A DNA stretch of 64,000 nt from Methanosphaera sp. (GCF_022768985.1 NZ_JALEKL010000011.1:62001-126000), one strand, 5' to 3'. Shown: positions 24,598-37,079, counted from the stretch's first letter. Notes: generated by a model not told the origin, from the letters alone. Program-made: numbers and translations.

Positions 24598-25443
24598 CTA
24601 GGAGTATGCAGCTACGTATTCTCCTACAATGTCGGAGTATTCGTTTCTGATATCTTCCCAGGTTTTACCATCGTCTACAATTGCGTCTGCAAGTTTAGGT
24701 ACGTGGTATGCTTCTACACCGTAGAATGTTTGTGGTGATTCTTCTACGAAGTCACGACGTACAGCTCCTCCACCACATCCAACAGGTGTATCGATTCCTG
24801 CTTCTTGTAATGCTGCTACAATTTTACCGAATTCGGTCATTGTTGTTGTCATTAATGCTGTTGCTGTCATTAATACAGGTTTGTGTTCTTGTGCTTGTTT
24901 TACTACTTCTAATGTAGGAACGTCACGACCTAAATCGATTGCACCGTATCCGTTTGCGTTTAAGAACATAACGATAAGGTTTTTACCGATGTCGTGTGGG
25001 TCTCCTTCTACAGCAAAGGTCATTACAGGAGCTTTTGTATCGGATTTGTGTCCGAGTTTTGCTTCACAAAGTGCTACTCCACTCATCATTGCATCTCCTG
25101 CAAGCATGAGATCAGGTAAGAAGAATTCACCTTTGGTGTATAATGCACTTACACCATCCATACCTTTCATTAAAGCGTTGTTAATGAGGTCGATTGGGTC
25201 TTCTCCAGCTTCTAAAGCTTCTGCTACTTTAGCATCACATGCTTCTTTGTCTCCGTAGAGTACTGTTAATGCTAAGTCTCTTTTTACTCCTTCTTCTTTT
25301 GGTAAGATTTCTACAACTTCTGGGTCGTCTTCAGGTTTGAGAGCTGGACCTTCAATTTTTACATTGTATCTTATAGCAATATCTTCGTATCCGTTTCCTT
25401 CATCGAATATTGCATCATATTTAAATAATGGACTGTCAGACAT
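24598..25443 (-). CDS. mtaC: Methanol corrinoid protein MtaC (copy 1)
   Basis: MtaC carries the corrinoid that accepts the methyl group of methanol from MtaB and donates it to MtaA. A helical cap domain (about residues 60-130, GVSALYTKGEFFLPDLMLAG) precedes the B12-binding Rossmann domain. The cobalt-ligating motif is GDPHDIGKN, with His near residue 150, followed by the GCGGGAVRRDF loop. It lies 30 bp after mtaB in the same operon. The N-terminal 20 residues differ from copy 2 while much of the rest is nearly identical. AGGAAGTG precedes the ATG. Confidence 0.95.
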   Translation of the reverse strand: MSDSPLFKYDAIFDEGNGYEDIAIRYNVKIEGPALKPEDDPEVVEILPKEEGVKRDLALTVLYGDKEACDAKVAEALEAGEDPIDLINNALMKGMDGVSALYTKGEFFLPDLMLAGDAMMSGVALCEAKLGHKSDTKAPVMTFAVEGDPHDIGKNLIVMFLNANGYGAIDLGRDVPTLEVVKQAQEHKPVLMTATALMTTTMTEFGKIVAALQEAGIDTPVGCGGGAVRRDFVEESPQTFYGVEAYHVPKLADAIVDDGKTWEDIRNEYSDIVGEYVAAYS

Positions 25444-25473: not shown

Positions 25474-26865
25474 TTATAACTCATACTGTGATGGGTCGTG
25501 TTCTTTTACTTTTCTTCCGTAACGTTTAATACATGCTTTTGCAAATTTATCTTGATCTTCTGGTAATTGTTCAATTGTTTTTTGTGCTGAATCTAAGCTG
25601 TCTCTTTCGAATCTTGTTAAGTACATTCTTTTTGCGTCTACAGCTTCGTTCATAATTGCACATGCTTCAAGAGCTGCTGCACGTGCTCTGAGGTAGATGT
25701 CTTCTCCATCTGCTACAATTGCTTCACCAATTCTGTAAGCGTTATCGTAAGCAAGTATAAGTGCTTGAGGGTCTCGGTATTTATCTGCTAATGTGTACAT
25801 ATCTCTTAGGTCTTTTTCTTTACCCATTTTTGTAGCTGTGTTCATTAAAGCACATTCGTATCCGAGTGATTGTAACCATACACCTGTTGTTGGTCCACCC
25901 ATTTCTTCTCTGTTGTATACAGATTCGTTACTCCAACAGTCTACTACTGCTGCTGCTAAGTTACCCATTAAGTCTGAGTGAGCACATGTTGCGTTTTTAC
26001 CTTCTGCACATACTGGAATACCACCGATTGCTTTTACAATAGGGTTTTCGTATCCACAGTCTTTTGTAGGTCCTGTTGCACCACATTCAACTGCTACAAG
26101 GCTTCTTGCTCCTGCAATACCTCTTGCAATTGCTGCAAGTGTGTGTGATACGTTTTTGGAGGTTAATCCTCCACCTAAGAACATTGCGGTGTTAGCTTGT
26201 GCACAGTCTGTGTCTCCACCAGGTACACAGTAGTCGTATTTGCTTGCTACATCTACGATTTTTGTCCACATGTATTCCATATCGATTGAACCTAATAATC
26301 CGATACCGTATAAGATAGCACGGATATCTCCTCTAGCAATACCGTAGTCTGATACTACTTTACCACCGATGGTTTCTACACATAAAATTGATGCTCCGTT
26401 TTCAGCACATGCTTCGAAGGATTCATCCATTGTTACGTCGAAGTCAGAACCTCTTAATCCACCCATATCTTCTTCACGAATATCTGCTACTGTTGACATT
26501 AAGGATGTTTTTGTTCCGTATTTGTCGTGTAATTCTTCGAGTTGTTCGATTTGTGTAGCTGTTGTTTTTGCAGAAATTTCTGCACTTTTTGTTTGTTGTG
26601 CTACGTGTTCTTGTTCGATCTGTAATGTTGGTAGACCTATTGCAGCTGCACGGTCACATGCTGAGAAAGCAATGTTTTTACATGTAGCAACCATACCTTC
26701 TACACTTGTTTCTGATCCTTCTGCAGGAGCTACTTTAATGTTAGGTACTACTTCACCTACTCCTAATTTTACACCAAATCCGTATTCTACAGGGTTTGCT
26801 GCTTGTCCAAATACTAAATCATCTACTGATTCATTTTCCATTTTTGTAAAACGTTTTAATACCAT
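25474..26865 (-). CDS. mtaB: Methanol:corrinoid methyltransferase MtaB (copy 1)
   Basis: MtaB is the zinc enzyme that cleaves the C-O bond of methanol and methylates the corrinoid of MtaC. The zinc ligands known in Methanosarcina barkeri (Glu164, Cys220, Cys269) correspond here to Glu164 in LCVETIGG, Cys221 in GGDTDCAQAN and Cys270 in TKDCGYENP. The length of 463 aa is typical. GGTGAA precedes the ATG. The gene order is mtaB then mtaC. The sequence TATGTGGGTATA lies 40 nt before the start. Confidence 0.95.
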   Translation of the reverse strand: MVLKRFTKMENESVDDLVFGQAANPVEYGFGVKLGVGEVVPNIKVAPAEGSETSVEGMVATCKNIAFSACDRAAAIGLPTLQIEQEHVAQQTKSAEISAKTTATQIEQLEELHDKYGTKTSLMSTVADIREEDMGGLRGSDFDVTMDESFEACAENGASILCVETIGGKVVSDYGIARGDIRAILYGIGLLGSIDMEYMWTKIVDVASKYDYCVPGGDTDCAQANTAMFLGGGLTSKNVSHTLAAIARGIAGARSLVAVECGATGPTKDCGYENPIVKAIGGIPVCAEGKNATCAHSDLMGNLAAAVVDCWSNESVYNREEMGGPTTGVWLQSLGYECALMNTATKMGKEKDLRDMYTLADKYRDPQALILAYDNAYRIGEAIVADGEDIYLRARAAALEACAIMNEAVDAKRMYLTRFERDSLDSAQKTIEQLPEDQDKFAKACIKRYGRKVKEHDPSQYEL

Positions 26866-26905: not shown

Positions 26906-26917
26906 TATACCCACATA
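26906..26917 (-). promoter_or_regulatory. Shared element TATGTGGGTATA at mtaB copy 1
   Basis: On the minus strand this reads TATGTGGGTATA, 40 nt before the mtaB start. The same 12 bases lie 39 nt before the second mtaB, preceded in both by an AT-rich AAAATAAT context. It is a candidate operator for the nearby regulators. Confidence 0.6.
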
Positions 26918-27416
26918 ATTATTTTAAAAAATTGTATTAAATTCATATGAATATTTTATTCATAAGTTAATACTTACAGTTAATACTATTATCATATAGA
27001 ATATAAAAAGGTTTATATTTCGTCGAAAAATCGAATTTTTAAAATAAGTCTTTAATTTTAAAATAAAGTAATTTTAGTACTATTTTTATGAATTAACTAC
27101 ATTTTAACATCTTTTTTTATAAAATAAGTTTAATTTAGTTTTAATTACTTATGTAATAAATTTTAATTAAAAATAAAAATTGTTTTAAAAGTATACAAGT
27201 AAATTAGAAATAATTTTTAGAAATATTGCAAAGTAATATTTTGTTTAACAAAAATGAACCAAAGTTTATTAAAAAGTAATACTTTTGGCTATATTACATG
27301 AGTTAATTTTAGGAGTTTATCTGATTATTCTAAAAAAAAATAAAAAAATAGAATAGGGTTGAAAAATTTCATTTTCCGTATTTAAAAAAAAATAATAAAA
27401 AAAATATAACAAATAA

Positions 27417-27442
27417 GATGAATCAGTTCATCTATGGATGAA
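27417..27442 (-). terminator. Alternative hairpins after mtaC copy 2
   Basis: On the minus strand the order is TTCATC-CATA-GATGAA-CTGA-TTCATC. The middle arm can pair with either neighbour, giving two mutually exclusive 6-bp hairpins with 4-nt loops. A T-rich tract follows, so the distal hairpin looks like a terminator. Confidence 0.5.
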
Positions 27443-27502
27443 ATCTGCTCACCTTACTTTAAACTTTTATGGTATCTTTCTGGTATTATTGCGTTTAACT
27501 AC

Positions 27503-28330
27503 TTAGGAGTATGCTGCTACGTATTCGCCTACAATGTCAGCATATTCATTTCTGATGTCTTCCCATGTTTTACCATCGTCTACGATAGCATCTGCAAGTT
27601 TAGGTACGTGGTATGCTTCTACACCGTAGAATGTTTGTGGTGATTCTTCTACGAAGTCACGACGTACAGCTCCTCCACCACATCCAACAGGTGTGTCGAG
27701 TCCTGCTTCTTGCATTAATGCTACGATTTTACCGAATGCTGTCATGGTTGTTGTCATTAAAGCTGTTGCTGTTACAAGTGCTGGTTTGTTTTCTTCAACT
27801 GCTTTTACAACATCTGCGTTAGGTACGTCACGACCAAGGTCTACTGCTTCGTATCCGTTTGCGTTTAAGAACATAACAATAAGGTTTTTACCGATGTCGT
27901 GAGGGTCACCTTCTACTGCACAACTTACTACTGTTGCTTTGGAGTCTGCTTTGTGTCCAAGTTTTGCTTCACAAAGAGCTACTCCACTCATCATTGCATC
28001 TCCTGCAAGCATGAGATCAGGTAAGAAGAATTCACCTTTGGTGTATAATGCACTTACACCATCCATACCTTTCATTAAAGCGTTGTTAATGAGGTCGATT
28101 GGGTCTTCTCCAGCATCGAGTGCTGCTGCTACTTTAGCATCACAATCATCTTTATCTCCGTAAAGTACTGCTAATGCTAAGTCTCTTTTTACTCCTTCTT
28201 CTTGAGGTAAGATTTCTACAACTTCTGGGTCGTCTTCAGGTTTGAGAGCTGGACCTTCTATTTTTACGTTGTATCTTATTGCAATTTTTTCATAATCTGT
28301 TACTTTATCAAATAATTCTACTAATGACAT
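27503..28330 (-). CDS. mtaC: Methanol corrinoid protein MtaC (copy 2)
   Basis: This second MtaC has 275 aa with the same helical cap, the GDPHDIGKN cobalt-ligand motif and the GCGGGAVRRDF loop as copy 1. The short N-terminus (MSLVELFDKVTDYEKIAIRY) is different. Two DNA stretches are identical to copy 1: 104 bp (27591-27694) and 137 bp (27978-28114). It follows mtaB copy 2 by 51 bp in one operon. AAGGATGTG lies upstream of the ATG. Confidence 0.95.
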   Translation of the reverse strand: MSLVELFDKVTDYEKIAIRYNVKIEGPALKPEDDPEVVEILPQEEGVKRDLALAVLYGDKDDCDAKVAAALDAGEDPIDLINNALMKGMDGVSALYTKGEFFLPDLMLAGDAMMSGVALCEAKLGHKADSKATVVSCAVEGDPHDIGKNLIVMFLNANGYEAVDLGRDVPNADVVKAVEENKPALVTATALMTTTMTAFGKIVALMQEAGLDTPVGCGGGAVRRDFVEESPQTFYGVEAYHVPKLADAIVDDGKTWEDIRNEYADIVGEYVAAYS

Positions 28331-28381
28331 TTATACGCACATCCTTTTTAATTTTTTAATTTTCCTTAACTACACTCCACC

Positions 28382-29767
28382 TTATAATTCGTATTGTGAT
28401 GGGTCGTGTTCTTTTACTTTTCTTCCGTAACGTTTGATACAAGTTTTTACGAATTTATCTTGATCTTCTGGTAATTGTTCGTATGTTTTTTGTGTTGAAT
28501 CAAGAGTGTCTCTTTCGAATCTTGTAAGTAAGATACGTTTTTCTTCAACTGCTTCGTTGATTAATTCACAAGCTTTAAGTGCTGCTGCACGTGATCTAAG
28601 GTAGATGTCTTCTCCTTCTGCTGTGATTGCTTCACCGATTTTGTAAGCGTTATCGTATGCGAGGATTACTCCTTGAGGGTCTCGGTATTTATCTGCTAAT
28701 ACGTATGTGTCTCTTAAGTCTTTGTTTGTACCGATTTGGGTAGCTGTGTTCATTAAAGCACATTCGTATCCGAGTGATTGTAACCATACACCAGGGGTTG
28801 CTCCACCCATTTCTTCTCTGTTGTATACAGATTCGTTACTCCATACATCACATACTGCTGCTGTTAAGTTACCCATAAGGTCTGAGTGAGCACATGTTGC
28901 TGTTTTACCTTCTGCACAGATAGGTACTGATGCAATTGATTTTACAATAGGGTTTTCGTATCCACAGTCTTTTGTAGGTCCTGTTGCTCCACATTCAATA
29001 GCTACAAGGCTTCTTGCTCCTGCAATTGCTCTTGCTACTGCTGCGATTGTGTGTGATACGTTTTTGGATGTTAATCCACCTGCAAGGAACATTGCAGTGT
29101 TTGCTTGTGCACAGTCTGTATCTCCACCAGGGGTGATGTTGTTTTTGTTTGCTATGTCAACAATTTTTGTCCACATGTATTCCATATCGATTGATCCTAA
29201 TACACCGATACCGTATAAGATTGCTCTTACATCTCCTCTTGATATACCGTAGTCTGATACTACTTTACCACCGATTGTTTCTACACATAACATGGATGCT
29301 CCGTTTTCTGCACATGCTTCGAATGATTCATCCATTGCAACGTCTAAGTCTGATCCTCTTAGACCGTTTTCTTCTTCTCTCATATCTGCTACTGTAGACA
29401 TTAAAGATACTGCTGTTCCGAATTTGTCGTGTAATTCTTCGAGTTGTTCCCATTGAACTGCTGTGGTTCTTGCGGAAGCTTCTTTACTAATGGATTGTTG
29501 CTGTACGTGTTCTTGTTCTATTTGTACTGCTGGTAATCCAATTGCTGCTGCACGTTCACATGCTGCAAATGCAATGTTTTTACATGTTGCTACTAATCCA
29601 TCTACACTTGTTTCGGATCCTTCTGCTGGTGCTACTTTGATGTTAGGAATAACTACTCCGTCACCAACAACTTGATCTAATCCCATATGTACTGGGTTTT
29701 TAGTTTGTCCGAATACCATATCGTCTACGTTTTCTGTTTCCATTTTTGTATAATATTTTCTTGACAT
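28382..29767 (-). CDS. mtaB: Methanol:corrinoid methyltransferase MtaB (copy 2)
   Basis: This is a 461-aa MtaB paralogous to copy 1. The zinc-ligand segments LCVETIGGKVVSDYG, GGDTDCAQANTAMFL and GATGPTKDCGYENP are all kept, so it should be active. It is the first gene of its own mtaB-mtaC operon and is preceded by the shared TATGTGGGTATA element and a TATA-like sequence. GTGGTGAAA precedes the ATG. Two operons in tandem allow dosage or differential control of methanol use. Confidence 0.95.
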   Translation of the reverse strand: MSRKYYTKMETENVDDMVFGQTKNPVHMGLDQVVGDGVVIPNIKVAPAEGSETSVDGLVATCKNIAFAACERAAAIGLPAVQIEQEHVQQQSISKEASARTTAVQWEQLEELHDKFGTAVSLMSTVADMREEENGLRGSDLDVAMDESFEACAENGASMLCVETIGGKVVSDYGISRGDVRAILYGIGVLGSIDMEYMWTKIVDIANKNNITPGGDTDCAQANTAMFLAGGLTSKNVSHTIAAVARAIAGARSLVAIECGATGPTKDCGYENPIVKSIASVPICAEGKTATCAHSDLMGNLTAAVCDVWSNESVYNREEMGGATPGVWLQSLGYECALMNTATQIGTNKDLRDTYVLADKYRDPQGVILAYDNAYKIGEAITAEGEDIYLRSRAAALKACELINEAVEEKRILLTRFERDTLDSTQKTYEQLPEDQDKFVKTCIKRYGRKVKEHDPSQYEL

Positions 29768-29806
29768 ATAATTTCACCACTTAAATTTAGTTTTTTTGAT
29801 AAATCT

Positions 29807-29818
29807 TATACCCACATA
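29807..29818 (-). promoter_or_regulatory. Shared element TATGTGGGTATA at mtaB copy 2
   Basis: This is the same 12-base sequence as upstream of mtaB copy 1, here 39 nt before the start. It lies about 25 nt downstream of the TATA-like stretch at 29841-29853, so it would overlap the transcription start, a good place for a repressor or activator. Confidence 0.6.
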
Positions 29819-29840
29819 GTTATTATTTTAGCCCTTTTAG

Positions 29841-29853
29841 TATATAATATAAT
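29841..29853 (-). promoter_or_regulatory. Probable TATA box of mtaB copy 2
   Basis: On the minus strand this reads ATTATATTATATA. It is the best archaeal TATA-like stretch near the gene and would place the transcription start at about 29815-29818. In such AT-rich DNA this assignment is tentative. Confidence 0.4.
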
Positions 29854-30148
29854 ACCCTATTTTTTTTAATAATTCTTTATTTTCATTAAAGTAAATTGAA
29901 AATTTATTGAAAAGTTAAGTTTAATTAACAATTTTTAAACTAAATATAATCAAATAATTTAAAATTAAACTTAATTATTTGACTTTTTTTTATTAAATTA
30001 TTTGATTTTTATTAATATTTACTAAAAATAAGCTTTTTTAAGGCTTTATTTTTAATTTTAAGAGATATTTAAAAAATCATACTTTAAAATTACTTCTTAT
30101 TTTTTAGAAAATATTGCACACTAATTTAGTATTATGTAAAACAAAATA

Positions 30149-30189
30149 ATCCAAAGGGCAAAATAATCCAAATAGAAAAATGATCCAAA
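30149..30189. repeat. Three ATCCAAA direct repeats, 17-bp period
   Basis: ATCCAAA begins at 30149, 30166 and 30183, exactly 17 bp apart, in an A-rich context. They lie between the two divergent genes, about 190-230 bp before the start at 30379. Confidence 0.5.
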
Positions 30190-30378
30190 AGGAAATTCAA
30201 AATCACAAAAAAAATATCAAAAAAAAAGTTCCATAAAATTTTCATAAAAAAATATGAAAAAAATCAGCTATAACTAAAATACATTTTATAATAAAAAAAA
30301 ATAACATGGCAAAATTTTATATAATAAAATTATATATTTTATAACATAACTTTAAAATAATTTCAAGAGGCGATAAAA

Positions 30379-30981
30379 ACGACTAAACAACCAGAAGAGG
30401 TACTTCAAGAAGTTATTGATACAATAAATCCTCTAAGAGGAGTATTACATGTAGGTGTAATAAACGATGAACTTCGTAAAGGTATCACAAAACTTGAAAT
30501 GGAAAAAGCTGGAGAACTAATTCCAGTTATAAACATGGGTGTTCATGAATCATTAAATCGTGACTATACAGTTGTAATTATAAAAAATGCTTCATTTAGA
30601 CCACCTCCAACTGCAACAGTACAACTAGTAGATAACAAAGGTAACCTATTAGGAGAAGAAATAGTAAATCCTGATCAGAAAAAGAAATATAAAGAAGAAG
30701 AAGCTAACTTCATAAATCCTGATTTTGTTCTAATTAAAGATCAATCAGAAATTGAAGAAGATCTCAAAGCTGAAAATCTTGAAAAAAATCCTACAAAACA
30801 AGCATTTGTTCTTCCACCAGTACAATTTATTGAAGTTGAAGAACTTGAAGATACATGTGATGTAGTATCAAGCAGTCCAGATCCACTGGCTGATTTATTC
30901 CTTAAAACCTACTTTGAATTTGAAGATGATCCAAAACTTGCATCAATACTAGTAGGTTTCAACGTGAAAAAAGACGAATAG
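30379..30981 (+). CDS. Unknown protein in the methanol island, apparent ACG start
   Basis: The product is not recognised. The first in-frame ATG is at 30499, but the reading frame stays open upstream and encodes a plausible protein (TKQPEEVLQEVIDTINPLRG and on). No ATG, GTG or TTG occurs between the upstream stop (30358) and 30499. AGAGGCGAT, one base from the canonical AGAGGTGAT, ends 4 nt before an ACG at 30379, so ACG is the likely start, giving 200 aa. The protein is soluble and acidic, with a proline-rich FRPPPTATVQLVDNKG segment. It lies between mtaB copy 2 and mtaA, so a role in methanol metabolism is possible. Confidence 0.5.
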   Translation, partial: TTKQPEEVLQEVIDTINPLRGVLHVGVINDELRKGITKLEMEKAGELIPVINMGVHESLNRDYTVVIIKNASFRPPPTATVQLVDNKGNLLGEEIVNPDQKKKYKEEEANFINPDFVLIKDQSEIEEDLKAENLEKNPTKQAFVLPPVQFIEVEELEDTCDVVSSSPDPLADLFLKTYFEFEDDPKLASILVGFNVKKDE

Positions 30982-31231
30982 AATATAGGTAATTGATAAT
31001 TTACCTACTTTCTTTTATTTTTTTTAATAGTTAATATATCAACTCCATAAATAATTAAATCTATTTTTAAAATTTGAAATTTAAAAACATAAACTTCCAG
31101 CAAATATGCTAATTTTAACTAAAATTCTATGAAAAAGAGTGTATAATTTCTACAAAAAAGAGTCAATAAAATTTCTAAAGAAAAATTATATTACTAAAAA
31201 TTATCCTAAAAAAAGAGTATTTATTTTTATT

Positions 31232-31279
31232 TTATCTATGGATGGTTAGAAAAAATTATCTATGGATGGTTAGAAAAAA
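31232..31279. repeat. Perfect 24-bp tandem duplication
   Basis: A 24-bp unit starting TTATCTATGGATGG and ending in six A is repeated exactly once, at 31232-31255 and 31256-31279. Read from mtaA, each unit begins with six T, so the duplication doubles the T tract after the terminator hairpin. Confidence 0.85.
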
Positions 31280-31280
31280 T

Positions 31281-31303
31281 AAGTAGAAAAGAGATTTCTA
31301 CTT
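31281..31303 (-). terminator. mtaA terminator hairpin
   Basis: AAGTAGAAA and TTTCTACTT form a perfect 9-bp stem with a 5-nt loop. On the minus strand it lies 16 bp after the mtaA stop and is followed by a run of T. Confidence 0.7.
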
Positions 31304-31319
31304 ATGAAATGAAATCTAC

Positions 31320-32333
31320 TTATATTCCGTAGTATTCGTTTCTTGCTTCAACAAATGCTTGTATGTTTGCTAAAGGTGATTTAGGTGCAATACCACAACT
31401 TGGTGCTAATACGTTTGTACCTTTTTCGAGTGCTGCTTTTACTTCAGCTTTTACTTCATCTGTTGGTTTACTGAATAATGTTTGACTTGTTGAGATGTTA
31501 CCAACCATTACAGTGTCTGCTCCGATTTGTTCTCTTAATTCTTGTGCTTCTTCCATGTCAACTGCTTCTTCTACTGAAGCTCCGCTGAAACCACAGTCGA
31601 GCATACCTTCAAGAATAGGTTTTGAGTTACCACAGATGTGGATAATACTTTCCATTTCCATTTCTGCTGATAAGTCTTCTAATGCAGGTAATGCAAATTC
31701 ATTGAAGTCGTTAGGATCTAATAATTCAGGGGATGATGTAGGGTCTGCTACACAAATTACATCTACTCCACTGTCATTAAATGCTTCTACTAATTCGATT
31801 TGTGCTTCTAAAGCTACATCTACTGCATCTTCTACAATGAAACTGTCTGTTTTTAACATTTTTACTAAGTCTTCTACTCCTAAGAGGTGACCTGTTAATG
31901 TGAAAGGACCTGCCATACCTACTACTACAGGTACTTCAGGGTATTCATTTTTTAAGATTTCGATAGCTTCTAAGATTACAGGAAGTCTTCCTTGGTTTAC
32001 GAAGTCATCAGGTACTTCTAAATCTTCTGGGTCACCGTCACCGTGTGATTTGAGTGTTGGTGTGTTTTCCATGTCACCTAAATCTACTTTACAACCGAAT
32101 GCTTCTGCTTCTGCTGTTAAATCGAAAGGAATTCTAGCACATTCTAAACCTGCTTGTTCGTGTAATGCAATACCTAATTTAGCCATTTGTTCTGCATCTG
32201 TGTGTGCTTCTGGCCAGGATACTCCAGCTGCTGGGAAAGCTTCTTCTACAGCTGCTGCTGTTGCACTTATTGCTGGTACTACGTCTACTTCTTCGCCGTT
32301 TAATGCTGCTTTTAAATTATCTATAAGATCCAT
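31320..32333 (-). CDS. mtaA: Methylcobamide:coenzyme M methyltransferase MtaA
   Basis: MtaA transfers the methyl group from methyl-MtaC to coenzyme M, giving methyl-CoM for methanogenesis. It belongs to the uroporphyrinogen decarboxylase fold. The zinc ligands are His232 and Cys234 in IIHICGNSKPI, and Cys313 in APSCGIAPKSP. The length of 337 aa is typical. The chosen ATG follows AAAGGTGA; an ATG 16 codons upstream is less likely. An inverted repeat, GAGTTAT/ATAACTC, lies about 36 nt upstream. Confidence 0.93.
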   Translation of the reverse strand: MDLIDNLKAALNGEEVDVVPAISATAAAVEEAFPAAGVSWPEAHTDAEQMAKLGIALHEQAGLECARIPFDLTAEAEAFGCKVDLGDMENTPTLKSHGDGDPEDLEVPDDFVNQGRLPVILEAIEILKNEYPEVPVVVGMAGPFTLTGHLLGVEDLVKMLKTDSFIVEDAVDVALEAQIELVEAFNDSGVDVICVADPTSSPELLDPNDFNEFALPALEDLSAEMEMESIIHICGNSKPILEGMLDCGFSGASVEEAVDMEEAQELREQIGADTVMVGNISTSQTLFSKPTDEVKAEVKAALEKGTNVLAPSCGIAPKSPLANIQAFVEARNEYYGI

Positions 32334-32368
32334 TTGTTCACCTTTTATAATAATATAATATATTATCT

Positions 32369-32390
32369 GAGTTATGTACAATTATAACTC
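32369..32390. promoter_or_regulatory. Inverted repeat upstream of mtaA
   Basis: GAGTTAT and ATAACTC are perfect 7-bp inverted arms separated by 8 bp, centred about 46 nt before the mtaA start. The dyad would suit a dimeric regulator or a leader hairpin. Confidence 0.45.
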
Positions 32391-33071
32391 AAAAATTTTC
32401 AATGTTTATATATAACATTTTTTTTTGTTTTTCAATATTTCTACAAAGACTATATTATAATAGCTTAGATAGAATTAACAAAATTGCATCATCTCTTTTT
32501 ATTATAAGGATTATAATAAAAAAATAATTACATTATTAGTTAAAAGAAATAGTTTTATTATTGTGAGTATAAGACTATTCAATTTACTACATAAATGCTT
32601 AAGCAATTTGTTATTAAATTATATTATTGTTTACATTATATTTATATATTTATACTATACTCTAACCTATAACAAATAAAAGACATAGGATGCTTATTTT
32701 AGCCTAGTATATATTTAATATAGAGTATTTTTTTAAAAAAATACATATAAATTATAAAAATTAACTATTCTATCAAATTTTACTTAATATTAAGTCTTAC
32801 CTAAATTTAATAATTAAGTTATGAATCCTTTTTTTATAAAAAAAATTTCTAAATAAAGTTTTTTTTATTAAGAAAATAATTTTTCTAATATTAATTATAT
32901 TTTATGAAAAAAAGGGTTTGAAGATTACAATAATATTTTATACCCCAAAAAAAGTCATGTACTATATTTATACTAATTTCAATTTTTATTAATAATTCAT
33001 ACTATGTTATTTTTAATATATTCAACATCTTTATATAGTATATATTCATATAAAGAAATTCTATAGAATTT

Positions 33072-33211
33072 TATCATAACCACCATAATTTTATGAAATT
33101 ATCATGGTATAATAAAAATTATCATGACATAAAACTTATTATCATTACATTTATTATTATATCATACATCTTTAAATTATATCATAACTTGCTAATTTTA
33201 TTTTATATCAT
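33072..33211 (+). repeat. Phased TATCAT array (seven copies)
   Basis: TATCAT begins at 33072, 33100, 33120, 33140, 33160, 33180 and 33206. The five middle copies are exactly 20 bp apart, close to two helical turns. Flanking bases vary, with a partial consensus TATCATNACAT. It lies about 270-410 bp upstream of the second mtaA homologue and about 70 bp upstream of its probable TATA box. Confidence 0.7.
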
Positions 33212-33278
33212 AAATAATTATACAATTAGATTTTATATTATATATCCTTAATTTTTTTATCTTTTCAAACTACTTGCT

Positions 33279-33288
33279 CTTTATATAG
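33279..33288 (+). promoter_or_regulatory. Probable TATA box of the second mtaA homologue
   Basis: The sequence around TTTATATAG is the clearest TATA-like element downstream of the TATCAT array. It would place the transcription start near 33305-33315, inside a TTAACT/AGTTAA palindrome (33305-33320), and leave a leader of about 170 nt. Confidence 0.4.
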
Positions 33289-33480
33289 AACATAGAATAT
33301 ACTATTAACTAGAAAGTTAACAGGATAGTTAGAAAAAAACATTAAATTGTTTTTAAATCCGAAATAAAGCAAGAAATGTTTTTAATTACCTAAAATAAAA
33401 ATTTTAAGCAAAAATCAAATCAATTTTAATTGTCCTGTTGAGTTTCGCTATATCTTAAAAACTTAATAGGAGAAATCAAA

Positions 33481-34620
33481 ATGGATCTAATTGAAAACTT
33501 AGAAAATGCATTCGCAGGAAAAGAAGTAGAAAAAGTACCAGCTGCAAGTATTGTATCTGTAGCATTAGTTGAAGGAATGGAAAAAAGTGGTTGTGGATTC
33601 CCAATTTCACACGTTGACCCAGAAAAAATGTTAGGCTTAGGAGAAAGTGCACACAGATATGCAGGAATTGAAAGTATTAACCTTCCATTCGATTTAGCAA
33701 TTGAATCTGAAGCACTTGGATGTGAAGTTGACCTAAGAGAAGGAAACGAACACATCCCTGAAATTACAGCATCACCATTTTTTGATGACATTACAAGTGT
33801 AGAAGTAAACGATGACTTCCTAAGTAGTGGAAGAATTCCAGTAGTTGCAAAAGCATGTGAACTTGGACGTGAAAAATATCCAGACGTACCTCTTATAGGT
33901 GGACAAATTGGACCATTCACATTACTTGGACAAGTAGTAGGTATTGAATACTTAATGAAATGTCTTGCAACAGACCCTGAAGCTGTAAAAGAAGGAACAA
34001 ATGTAATGGCTGATGCAGTAATAGAAATTGTAGAAGCATACAATGACATAGGAATACAGGGAGATTGTATGTATGAACCATCTGTAGCAGCAGACTTACT
34101 ACCACCTGAAATGTTTGATGAAATTGTATCAAGACCACTTAAACGTATATCTAAAGCTGCAGACTTCAACATAGTATTACACGTATGTGGAGATACAACA
34201 CCTATCCTTAAACATACATTAAATCTTGGCTACAACGGATTCTCATTTGAAGATTCTGTAAATGCTAAAGAAGCAAACCAAATCAAATACGACCTTAAAA
34301 GTGACACCCAACTTGTAGGAAACGTAGCAACAGACACACTCTTTAAAGGTGACCTTGAAGGAGTAAGAGCAGAAACATTTAAAGCATTAGATCGTGGAAT
34401 TGACATACTAGGTTCATCCTGTTGTGTACCACCTGGAACACCACTTAAAGCAATGGAAGCAATGGTAAAAGCAAGAGATGAATACTATGAAAAAGGTATG
34501 GATATTACCAGAGAAAGAAACGAAGAAGCACTATCCTGGGAACCAGACTACAAAGAAATGATTCCACCTGTTGCAAACTTCCACCAAATGCCAAAACTTA
34601 AAAAAACACTCAAATTATAA
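33481..34620 (+). CDS. MtaA-like methylcobamide:CoM methyltransferase homologue
   Basis: This is a divergent MtaA/MtbA/CmuA-family protein. The opening MDLIENLENAFAGKEVEKVP matches MtaA. The zinc-ligand pattern is kept: His234 and Cys236 in LHVCGDTTPIL, and Cys314 or Cys315 in GSSCCVPPGTP. It has about 40 extra C-terminal residues (MDITRERNEEALSWEPDYKE and on) that MtaA lacks. It probably methylates coenzyme M or another thiol from a corrinoid protein, but its partner is unknown. It is divergent from mtaA across the 1.1-kb spacer. AGGAGA precedes the ATG. Confidence 0.75.
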   Translation: MDLIENLENAFAGKEVEKVPAASIVSVALVEGMEKSGCGFPISHVDPEKMLGLGESAHRYAGIESINLPFDLAIESEALGCEVDLREGNEHIPEITASPFFDDITSVEVNDDFLSSGRIPVVAKACELGREKYPDVPLIGGQIGPFTLLGQVVGIEYLMKCLATDPEAVKEGTNVMADAVIEIVEAYNDIGIQGDCMYEPSVAADLLPPEMFDEIVSRPLKRISKAADFNIVLHVCGDTTPILKHTLNLGYNGFSFEDSVNAKEANQIKYDLKSDTQLVGNVATDTLFKGDLEGVRAETFKALDRGIDILGSSCCVPPGTPLKAMEAMVKARDEYYEKGMDITRERNEEALSWEPDYKEMIPPVANFHQMPKLKKTLKL

Positions 34621-34934
34621 AATAATCTCACATAATTAAAAAAGGGAAGAAAACCTCAAATAGTTAGTAAAATTCTAAAAAAAGGGAAAAAGTTTAAAAC
34701 TGGGGGAAAATAACCTCTCCCCCATTATTTTAGGCAATTAAAAACAAAAATTTTATACCATATATATTAAACACATCTATATATAATAAAATCTGTATCT
34801 GTAATATAACAGGAAATCTATCTGTAAATAAAAAAAAGTTGTAATCTATATAAAATAAATCTTAAAATTAGGGGAATTTATATCTTTTTAAAATAGTTAT
34901 AAAAATGTAAACTATTAAATAATCCTAAGATAGT
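34621..34934. other. Convergent spacer
   Basis: No gene is seen. It holds the GC-rich hairpin listed separately, and AT-rich sequence between the ends of the mtaA homologue and the regulator operon. Confidence 0.3.
34701..34724 (+). terminator. GC-rich terminator hairpin of the mtaA homologue
   Basis: TGGGGGA and TCCCCCA form a perfect 7-bp stem with a 10-nt loop, followed by TTATTTTA. G/C runs like this are rare in this genome, so the structure is unlikely to be chance. Confidence 0.65.
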
Positions 34935-35756
34935 TTACATTAATAACTTAAATTTTTTTGTATAACAATCAAATATATTATCTATTTTTTTGAAATAATT
35001 TTCATCATCTGATATTAACATTGTTGCATCATCATATGAATCATCCATATAAAATAGTGATAATGAATAAAACTTATCAGTTGCAGTTAAAAACATGTTA
35101 ATTTCATTGTCATAATCAATCCATACTCTTACATATCCATCCTCACAAGCCTTGAGAAAATCATCTGCAATATCACTTTCAACTATTGCATCATACACTA
35201 TTTTTGATGTTATAAGATCCATCAGTCCATTATTTTCATAGATTGCATCAAGAAATGTTTCAAGATGGAACAATGAAAATATTGGAAGAACAACTCTAAA
35301 TCTACTTGCTGATCCACAACGTCTTAGAAGTGTATTCATTGGCTTATTATATACAAGACCTGATGATTTTACAAGTTCTGCATTTTTCCATATGTTAATG
35401 TTTCGAATAAATCTAAATGGTATATTTACAAGAGAATGTGTTTCCCAGAATTCCTCATGTTTTGATACACAAAAGAAGTTTTCAAAGAATTGATTTGTAT
35501 TACGTATTACAAGATTTCCCACAGATGTTAGAGAATACTTTTTAGCCTTTTTTTGCACAAATTTTGCTTCTTCAAGTTCTTTTAGTGTACGCAGTAGATT
35601 AGTTTTCTGAATATTTAGTTTTTCATTAAGTTCCTCTGATGTTTTATCTCCACGCATTAGTGCATAGAGTATTTCAAGTCTTAACTCTGATCTACATACA
35701 TAATCTATATGATCATAGGAATCTGAAATTAAATTTTCAATATTTTCAAATGACAC
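34935..35756 (-). CDS. ArsR-like HTH regulator with FilR1-type domain (downstream gene)
   Basis: An N-terminal winged helix (RLEILYALMRGDKTSEELNE, then NLLRTLKELEEAKFVQKKAK) is followed by a domain of about 180 residues resembling the FilR1/DUF1724 domain of methanogen regulators. Methanosarcina Msr proteins of this family control methanol methyltransferase genes. The start is GTG, immediately after the TAG stop of the upstream gene, with GGGTGAT in the end of that gene acting as ribosome-binding site. The two proteins are thus translationally linked. Control of the mta genes is inferred from location and family. Confidence 0.7.
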   Translation of the reverse strand: MSFENIENLISDSYDHIDYVCRSELRLEILYALMRGDKTSEELNEKLNIQKTNLLRTLKELEEAKFVQKKAKKYSLTSVGNLVIRNTNQFFENFFCVSKHEEFWETHSLVNIPFRFIRNINIWKNAELVKSSGLVYNKPMNTLLRRCGSASRFRVVLPIFSLFHLETFLDAIYENNGLMDLITSKIVYDAIVESDIADDFLKACEDGYVRVWIDYDNEINMFLTATDKFYSLSLFYMDDSYDDATMLISDDENYFKKIDNIFDCYTKKFKLLM

Positions 35757-36692
35757 CTAAATCACCCACTCCATATCCTCATCATATTCTTCCTCATCAT
35801 CATCTGCTTGTGCTATGCAACGTTCATCAAGTTCTTCATCTTCTTCTTGACTTAGTTTTTCAAGAATTAAATGTTGCATTGATACATATTTCTTATCATC
35901 ATTTCTTTCAAATTCCTTAAATAGGTTGTATCCCCAGTTTATTGCTGTTTGATCTGTTGATATAAAACATGAATTTTTATCTATTACTCCTTCTATTCTG
36001 TGGAAGCTTAGCACTATTTCTTTTTCAGATACTACCATTGCTATTTTTGGTTCATAGTCTAGTCTTTTTATATTAAAGTATTTATTTCGTATTTCATCAT
36101 GTTGTTGGTAGTTCATTGCACATTTTTGTATGTATTTTGCAACTTCCTTGTAAACCATTAAGTTTAGTCCTGTTTCTTGTTCCATTACAGCTGAAATTAT
36201 TCTTTTACACTCAGGATGTAGATATGAACATATTGCACATACTCGTCCTTGTCGTGTCATTGCCCTTTTATATGTATCTGTTGCCTTGAAGGGATTTAAT
36301 CTATCTGATTGTATTAGTTCTACATTTCTCATTACAGGAAGTTCTGCAAATGCTTCTTGTGGTAGTGCTTTCATATCATGATCATTTAGGAAATCTTCAT
36401 ATTCATTTAGGAATTTTAGATTTTCATTTAATGATAGAATATTTATTAGTTTGATTCTTGTTGATGTTTTAAGATAGTATTTATCTTGTTTTTTTATTAC
36501 ATATCCTTTCTCATCAAGCTTGTTTATATTTGATGTTACAGATGAATAGTTAGTATTTGTTTTTTCCTTGATTTCTTTTACTGATGCTCCTTTTTCATAG
36601 AGACAGATTAATATCTTTATTCTAACTAGGGAATTGGTTAGAAATGAGATTTCATCTTTTATCTCATGATATTCATCTCTTTTCAAGTCCAT
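35757..36692 (-). CDS. ArsR-like HTH regulator with acidic tail (upstream gene)
   Basis: The winged helix (VRIKILICLYEKGASVKEIK, then SSVTSNINKLDEKGYVIKKQ) and the following domain match the same FilR1-like family as the next gene. It has a Cys-containing segment CAICSYLHPEC in mid-protein that might bind metal or sense redox state, and a strongly acidic C-terminus (QADDDEEEYDEDMEWVI). AGGTGG precedes the ATG. The element TATGTGGGTAT lies 31 bp upstream, which suggests that the regulators and the mtaBC operons share control. Confidence 0.65.
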   Translation of the reverse strand: MDLKRDEYHEIKDEISFLTNSLVRIKILICLYEKGASVKEIKEKTNTNYSSVTSNINKLDEKGYVIKKQDKYYLKTSTRIKLINILSLNENLKFLNEYEDFLNDHDMKALPQEAFAELPVMRNVELIQSDRLNPFKATDTYKRAMTRQGRVCAICSYLHPECKRIISAVMEQETGLNLMVYKEVAKYIQKCAMNYQQHDEIRNKYFNIKRLDYEPKIAMVVSEKEIVLSFHRIEGVIDKNSCFISTDQTAINWGYNLFKEFERNDDKKYVSMQHLILEKLSQEEDEELDERCIAQADDDEEEYDEDMEWVI

Positions 36693-37079
36693 TTTTTTAT
36701 ACCACCTAATGATAGTTACGTTGTATGTGGGTATTGTTAATATTATGATTTATTTTTTAAATTTATAAATAGTATAGTTAAATAATACAGCTAAATAATA
36801 ATTGTAATACTTATTTTAAGATTAGTTGAAATATATTTATTGTAATTTGAATATTAATGTAAAAAATTAAACAAACTTGAAAATAAAAATAAGATGTAAT
36901 TTAATAAATTTCATATTGAATTTTAATAATTCCATAACATGAAAACCATAACTTTGAATATATAATATCTGAAAATATATTAATTTATTTAAATAAATAA
37001 TAAACATATAAAGATAATCTATTAATAATTAAAAGATTTATTCATTTTAAATTATTTTTTTACTAAAGGTGAACATCAA
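36693..37079. other. Divergent spacer between regulator operon and gatA
   Basis: No gene is seen. The left side holds the shared TATGTGGGTAT element and a TATA-like sequence for the regulators. The right side is AT-rich with the gatA ribosome-binding site AAAGGTGA at its end. Confidence 0.4.
36724..36734 (+). promoter_or_regulatory. Shared element TATGTGGGTAT at the regulator promoter
   Basis: This 11-bp core is identical to the element at both mtaB promoters but lies in the opposite orientation relative to the gene it precedes. It is 31 nt upstream of the regulator start and about 27 nt downstream of a TTTATAAAT sequence (36761-36770), so it would lie near the transcription start. Confidence 0.6.

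Follow-up and report, generated by a model that had tools for sequence, protein, structure and literature searches.

Methanosphaera are methanol-dependent gut methanogens, in which MtaB represents the entry point of energy metabolism. In the related field of Methanosarcina, Msr regulators act on mtaCB, and in bacteria, trans-acting small RNAs derived from 3' untranslated regions (3'UTRs) are a known general class. The nearest case of antisense control in a methanogen is sRNA162 of Methanosarcina mazei, which masks the ribosome-binding site on the mRNA of a transcription factor and has methyltransferase genes as indirect targets (PMC3510493). In Helicobacter pylori, NikS (HPnc4160) is encoded by a separate small RNA gene, the transcription of which is controlled by NikR, and its loop pairs with the 5'UTRs of several mRNAs (PMC8035401). 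At the protein level, FilR1 is involved in the regulation of methanogenesis genes (PMC3991700). In the present study, we analyzed a 64,000-nucleotide stretch from Methanosphaera sp. (NZ_JALEKL010000011.1:62001-126000; hereafter, the window), and focused on a short element, TATGTGGGTATA, that precedes both of its mtaB genes and the reverse complement of which was found immediately downstream of the nickel regulator gene nikR elsewhere in the same genome.

TATGTGGGTATA is most likely a genus-wide 5'-leader element of all Methanosphaera mtaB mRNAs. We surveyed 20 Methanosphaera genomes, all of which contained the element, and it was present at each of the 30 readable mtaB start regions in the same orientation, with its first base 36-54 nucleotides (nt) upstream of the mtaB ATG. 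It was an exact 12-mer at 29 of the 30 starts, while the remaining one begins CATG; extra copies sit at contig ends or before truncated or masked genes. In the window, the leader element of the a-type mtaB is an exact copy at 29807-29818 (minus strand), a position common to all a-type mtaB genes of the genus, and that of the b-type mtaB is an exact copy at 26906-26917 (minus strand), which is kept in the b-type mtaB genes of the genus.

A preliminary description of this DNA, made from the window only, had proposed that an 11-bp sequence, TATGTGGGTAT, occurs at both mtaB promoters and at the promoter of a neighboring regulator operon and nowhere else in the window, and this was borne out by an exact search: the three copies lie at 26907-26917 (minus), 29808-29818 (minus), and 36724-36734 (plus), whereas 0.03 copies would be expected, and no shuffle out of 100 reached three. 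The distances it gave to the start codons (40 and 39 nt for the mtaB copies and 31 nt for the regulator copy) were also correct, as was the extension of both mtaB copies, which share a twelfth base that yields TATGTGGGTATA and is missing from the third copy. That a real element exists at the two mtaB genes is strongly supported by its presence at every readable mtaB start of the genus.

The same description had suggested a genome scan allowing one mismatch, and the outcome was divided. The whole genome (1.61 Mb, 15 contigs) holds four exact copies of TATGTGGGTAT, the fourth of which is located at contig C9:248411-248421, immediately 3' of nikR. With one mismatch allowed, there were 37 copies versus 52 for the reversed pattern that served as the control in genome scans; therefore, only exact matches are informative, and near-matches were rejected as further sites because they are not commoner than the control pattern. 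The same control suggests that approximately 1.4 chance copies are expected per genome. One of the near-matches, TATGTGGATATAAGATTTAGG at C6:34172-34182 of this genome (locus L172, C6:30000-38000), resembles an a-type mtaB leader outside the motif as well, and has no open reading frame of at least 90 amino acids nearby.

The mtaB promoters, when aligned on the element, split into two classes, a-type and b-type. Nearly every a-type promoter has a TATA box (mostly ATTATATA) that starts 30-31 nt upstream of the element, with no insertions or deletions in between, and the distance from the element to the Shine-Dalgarno (SD) sequence varies from 27 to 40 nt (27-43 nt from the first base of the element across mtaB leaders). 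In b-type promoters, a clear TATA-like match is mostly found 72-106 nt upstream of the element, and the spacing is not fixed. The predicted boxes of the window conform to this layout, with ATTATATA at 29841-29848 (minus) beginning 30 nt before the a-type element and TTTATATT at 27000-27007 (minus) beginning 90 nt before the b-type element. Archaeal TATA boxes are placed approximately 28 nt before the transcription start (PMC8553660), and, by this rule, transcription of a-type mtaB is predicted to begin at the element, while in the b-type the more distant TATA box puts the element within a longer leader. Common to both classes, the element most likely lies in the transcribed mRNA leader, a prediction from the TATA boxes, and this placement makes a leader more likely than an upstream operator. 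An alternative role as a B recognition element and TATA box (GTGGGTATAA) is unlikely because a better-placed TATA box is present upstream and because, in the shortest leaders, a start placed approximately 25 nt past that "TATA" would coincide with the SD sequence or come after it. Besides the element, a repeated sequence resembling AGTATTAA (GTATTAAnTGtAAGTATTAA) follows the upstream TATA box in b-type mtaB promoters (loci L053, L048, L039, L060, and others), at approximately 26945-27000 (minus) in the window, and many a-type promoters have TTTCAAGTATT in common upstream of the TATA box; both are candidate activator sites or start-region signals.

Regarding the second locus, nikR was identified by its matches to NF002169 (230.9 bits, cut-off 111) and NF003381 (135.9 bits, cut-off 105). 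The reverse complement of the mtaB element, TATACCCAC(ATA), lies 8-41 nt past the nikR stop codon in 19 of the 20 genomes, some of which are closely related to one another, and always on the nikR strand. The genome of the window has ATACCCACATA at this site, with 11 of the 12 bases, and two genomes (G002 and G003) have two copies each. Conservation is stricter at mtaB (12 nt) than at nikR (9-nt core). The distance from the nikR element to the next gene, approximately 110 to more than 300 nt, is not kept, and the spacer has otherwise largely diverged. The complete genome G016 has six copies of the core TGTGGGTATA, namely, four in mtaB leaders, one at nikR, and one at a coding site. The element was not found in the relatives within the family wherever the 3' end of nikR was readable, and their mtaB genes also lack it where the leader was readable.

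The nikR locus of the genome that contains the window (C9:248411-248893; loci L001 and L185; those of the other genomes are included in L175-L194) is followed by genes for a small methyltransferase-like protein and a hycI-type hydrogenase maturation peptidase (L001:555-1313 and 86-595, both minus strand), which represent nickel-enzyme functions. A site serving the gene after nikR (the putative methyltransferase, then hycI) was rejected because the distance is not conserved, and an antisense promoter was rejected because no consistent TATA box was found by eye on that strand in the flanks.

The nikR element also tends to lie in a hairpin loop. In a test that compared the duplex energy of the left and right flanks of the element with dinucleotide shuffles, the enclosing stem on the nikR-sense strand had a mean z of -1.74, with 11 of the 19 sites at p<0.05, and the opposite strand had a mean z of -1.35, with 6 of 19 at p<0.05. 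Among 152 other 3' ends of the genus used as controls, the mean z was -0.03 and six were significant; the mtaB leaders gave a mean z of -0.24, with one of 29 significant. The stems are species-specific in sequence, while the loop motif is constant. No Rfam match was obtained at the nikR 3' region or the mtaB leaders, and the loci searched gave tRNAs only.

The element and its conservation, together with the complementary element and the hairpin bias at nikR, are established by sequence, and the complementarity between the two loci is conserved (30 of 30 mtaB leaders and 19 of 20 nikR 3' regions). We hold with moderate confidence that the nikR 3'UTR, or an RNA derived from it, may pair antisense with the mtaB leaders. 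In the mechanism we propose, UAUACCCAC(AUA) in the 3'UTR of nikR mRNA, often displayed in a hairpin loop, would be the pairing partner, and this 3'UTR, or a small RNA processed from it, would form 9-12 base pairs with the mtaB leaders, close to the 5' end of the mRNA or directly at it. Pairing would alter mtaB mRNA stability or ribosome access, and the output of the methanol methyltransferase would thereby be tied to the nickel regulator. Methyl-coenzyme M (CoM) reductase and hydrogenases need nickel. The predicted duplexes of the two window leaders with the nikR 3' region of their own genome have energies of approximately -22 kcal/mol and are built around the 11-bp match. By inference, the two RNAs would coexist and base-pair in vivo, with control running from nikR to mtaB and not the other way round. 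Since the first base of the element lies 27-43 nt before the SD sequence, pairing appears likelier to affect ribosome standby or the stability of the 5' end than to mask the SD sequence directly.

Compared with the systems described above, the present arrangement resembles sRNA162 in that an antisense RNA in a methanogen would ultimately alter methyltransferase gene expression; however, sRNA162 is a separate antisense transcript, whereas here the nikR 3'UTR is the partner and the mtaB leaders are themselves the predicted targets, and the two systems are not homologous. The likeness to NikS lies in a tie to NikR and in a loop of RNA that is complementary to 5'UTRs, although the loop here is attached to the nikR gene itself, such that the analogy is one of logic only, without homology. 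A 3'UTR with a loop complementary to the leaders of other mRNAs is also reminiscent of bacterial 3'UTR-derived small RNAs, with the difference that the present case is predicted from sequence and has no known archaeal chaperone context. Searches of open-licence papers in PubMed Central found no report of this element and no earlier archaeal case of a tie between nikR and methanol genes.

Several observations weigh against antisense pairing. The element is too distant from the SD sequence for simple masking. No covariation between the partner elements was seen in the mtaB leaders and nikR sites, which is attributable to the mtaB side being nearly invariant. Eight of the 19 nikR sites lack a significant stem, and some of the genomes are close relatives. 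One genome (G013) lacks the nikR element, yet keeps the element at mtaB. Furthermore, 3' hairpins that lack the motif are found at some outgroup nikR genes; thus, the hairpin may only, or originally, be a transcript-end structure.

Among the alternatives, a double-stranded DNA operator, for which a genus-conserved protein other than the FilR1-type pair would bind TATGTGGGTATA on or shortly past the point where mtaB transcription begins, as well as an inverted site 3' of nikR, is the one that survives best, and we consider it unlikely. An asymmetric site can work either way round, which would allow for the inverted copies at nikR and at the regulator operon, and the fixed TATA spacing in a-type promoters is what a promoter element would show; however, this spacing is not fixed in b-type promoters, and the site has one orientation at all 30 mtaB starts and the reverse at all 19 nikR sites. 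The nikR site tracks the stop codon rather than any promoter, an enclosing hairpin is not predicted by a DNA site, and the neighboring regulators are undetectable in several element-bearing genomes. Taken together, the fixed orientation at mtaB, the opposite orientation at nikR, the tie to the nikR stop codon, and the tendency to lie in a loop are more in keeping with RNA-RNA pairing than with a double-stranded operator. The operator proposed in the preliminary description is not supported either, because the predicted TATA boxes would put the element on the transcription start or past it. The other conserved site that it matches in the genome, in antisense, is the nikR 3'UTR.

The reverse direction of action, in which abundant mtaB leaders act on the 3'UTR of nikR mRNA and change its stability, such that methanol-gene expression sets the NikR level, draws on the same complementarity and is distinctly unlikely in our judgment. 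The mtaB side is more strictly conserved, and a catabolic mRNA is generally expected to outnumber a regulator mRNA, but the presence of the element in every mtaB paralogue is easier to explain with the mtaB mRNAs as targets. Independent roles at the two loci, with a local function at mtaB (initiator, mRNA stability, or translation) and a separate one at nikR, for example, as part of a transcript-end signal, would suit the stricter conservation at mtaB and the motif-free 3' hairpins of some outgroup nikR genes. We rank this explanation about equally low, because the same complementary 10-mer, genus-restricted at both places, is hard to obtain by chance, and other copies of the core are few in each genome, most of those examined being in coding sequence.

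The weakest explanation is that of the preliminary description, in which one of two adjoining FilR1-type regulators would recognize the element both at mtaB and in the promoter of its own operon; we regard it as very improbable, since the regulator copy is not kept in relatives, neither regulator could be detected in several genomes that retain the element, and approximately 1.4 chance copies per genome are expected anyway. It had been attractive because three exact copies fall within one window and FilR1-domain regulators adjoin the mta genes, which recalls the known FilR1 and Msr settings; however, the element and these regulators are distributed differently among the genomes, and relatives do not keep the copy at the regulator promoter. 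The two genes, at 35757-36692 and 34935-35756 (both minus), carry the FilR1_middle domain according to a family search (PF08350; 48.1 and 46.7 bits, respectively). Their homologues were found in 11 and 12 of the 20 genomes, respectively, versus 20 of 20 for the element, indicating no consistent co-occurrence, and neither was detected at E <= 0.001 in several element-bearing genomes, including G004 and G008, which are 99% complete. The third copy (36724-36734, plus) is exact and inverted relative to the regulator operon. No such sequence was present in the promoter of the orthologous regulator (66% identity) in the nearest syntenic genome, G001, or in the promoters of more distant homologues in the other genomes that have one. 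Therefore, this copy is probably coincidental or lineage-specific, an operator of the neighboring regulators is rejected on the conservation of the site and the distribution of the regulators, and the model of control over mtaBC and autoregulation is without comparative support.

Beyond mtaB and nikR, a wider regulon was also rejected, because other exact copies are mostly in coding sequence, such as an argB-like gene in several genomes. The few intergenic copies (L104, L111, L152, L153, and L162) have no common location except between the near-identical G002 and G003, and an enclosing stem was significant only in L162 (G017:C100:8853; p=0.023). The copy in L152 (G013:C46:2652) belongs to the sole genome without a nikR copy. 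Outside the genus, the element was not found in the mtaB leaders of other family genera that have mtaB, wherever the leader was readable (near-complete genes, 59-63% identical), and its presence in other genera was accordingly rejected. In a GTDB-wide scan, named records with the same arrangement were Methanosphaera or unnamed Methanobacteriaceae, and the remaining matches were single hits in unrelated groups that were not checked individually.

The genes of the mta region, all on the minus strand unless stated otherwise, comprise a-type mtaB at 28382-29767 (PF12176, 698.4 bits; NF040651, 739.3 bits, cut-off 720) followed by mtaC at 27503-28330 (NF040669, 472.1 bits, cut-off 450), and b-type mtaB at 25474-26865 (PF12176, 691.8 bits; NF040651, 734.4 bits, cut-off 720) followed by mtaC at 24598-25443 (NF040669, 468.3 bits, cut-off 450). 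Two mtaA-like methylcobamide:CoM methyltransferase genes, at 31320-32381 and 33481-34620 (plus), do not have the element. The latter scored 296.9 against NF040654, under the cut-off of 400, and, thus, may have a different substrate or role.

The pairing reading predicts specific compensatory mutation pairs and is, therefore, directly testable. More tentatively, we suggest that the nikR mRNA may have a dual function, encoding the nickel regulator and, through its 3'UTR or a small RNA, controlling all mtaB mRNAs, which would link methanol use to nickel status. The controller of mtaB would then be sought at another genomic locus instead of among the neighboring FilR1-type proteins, and, if the proposal is true, Methanosphaera would provide an archaeal example of a regulator mRNA with a 3'UTR that acts in trans and is linked to every mtaB mRNA.

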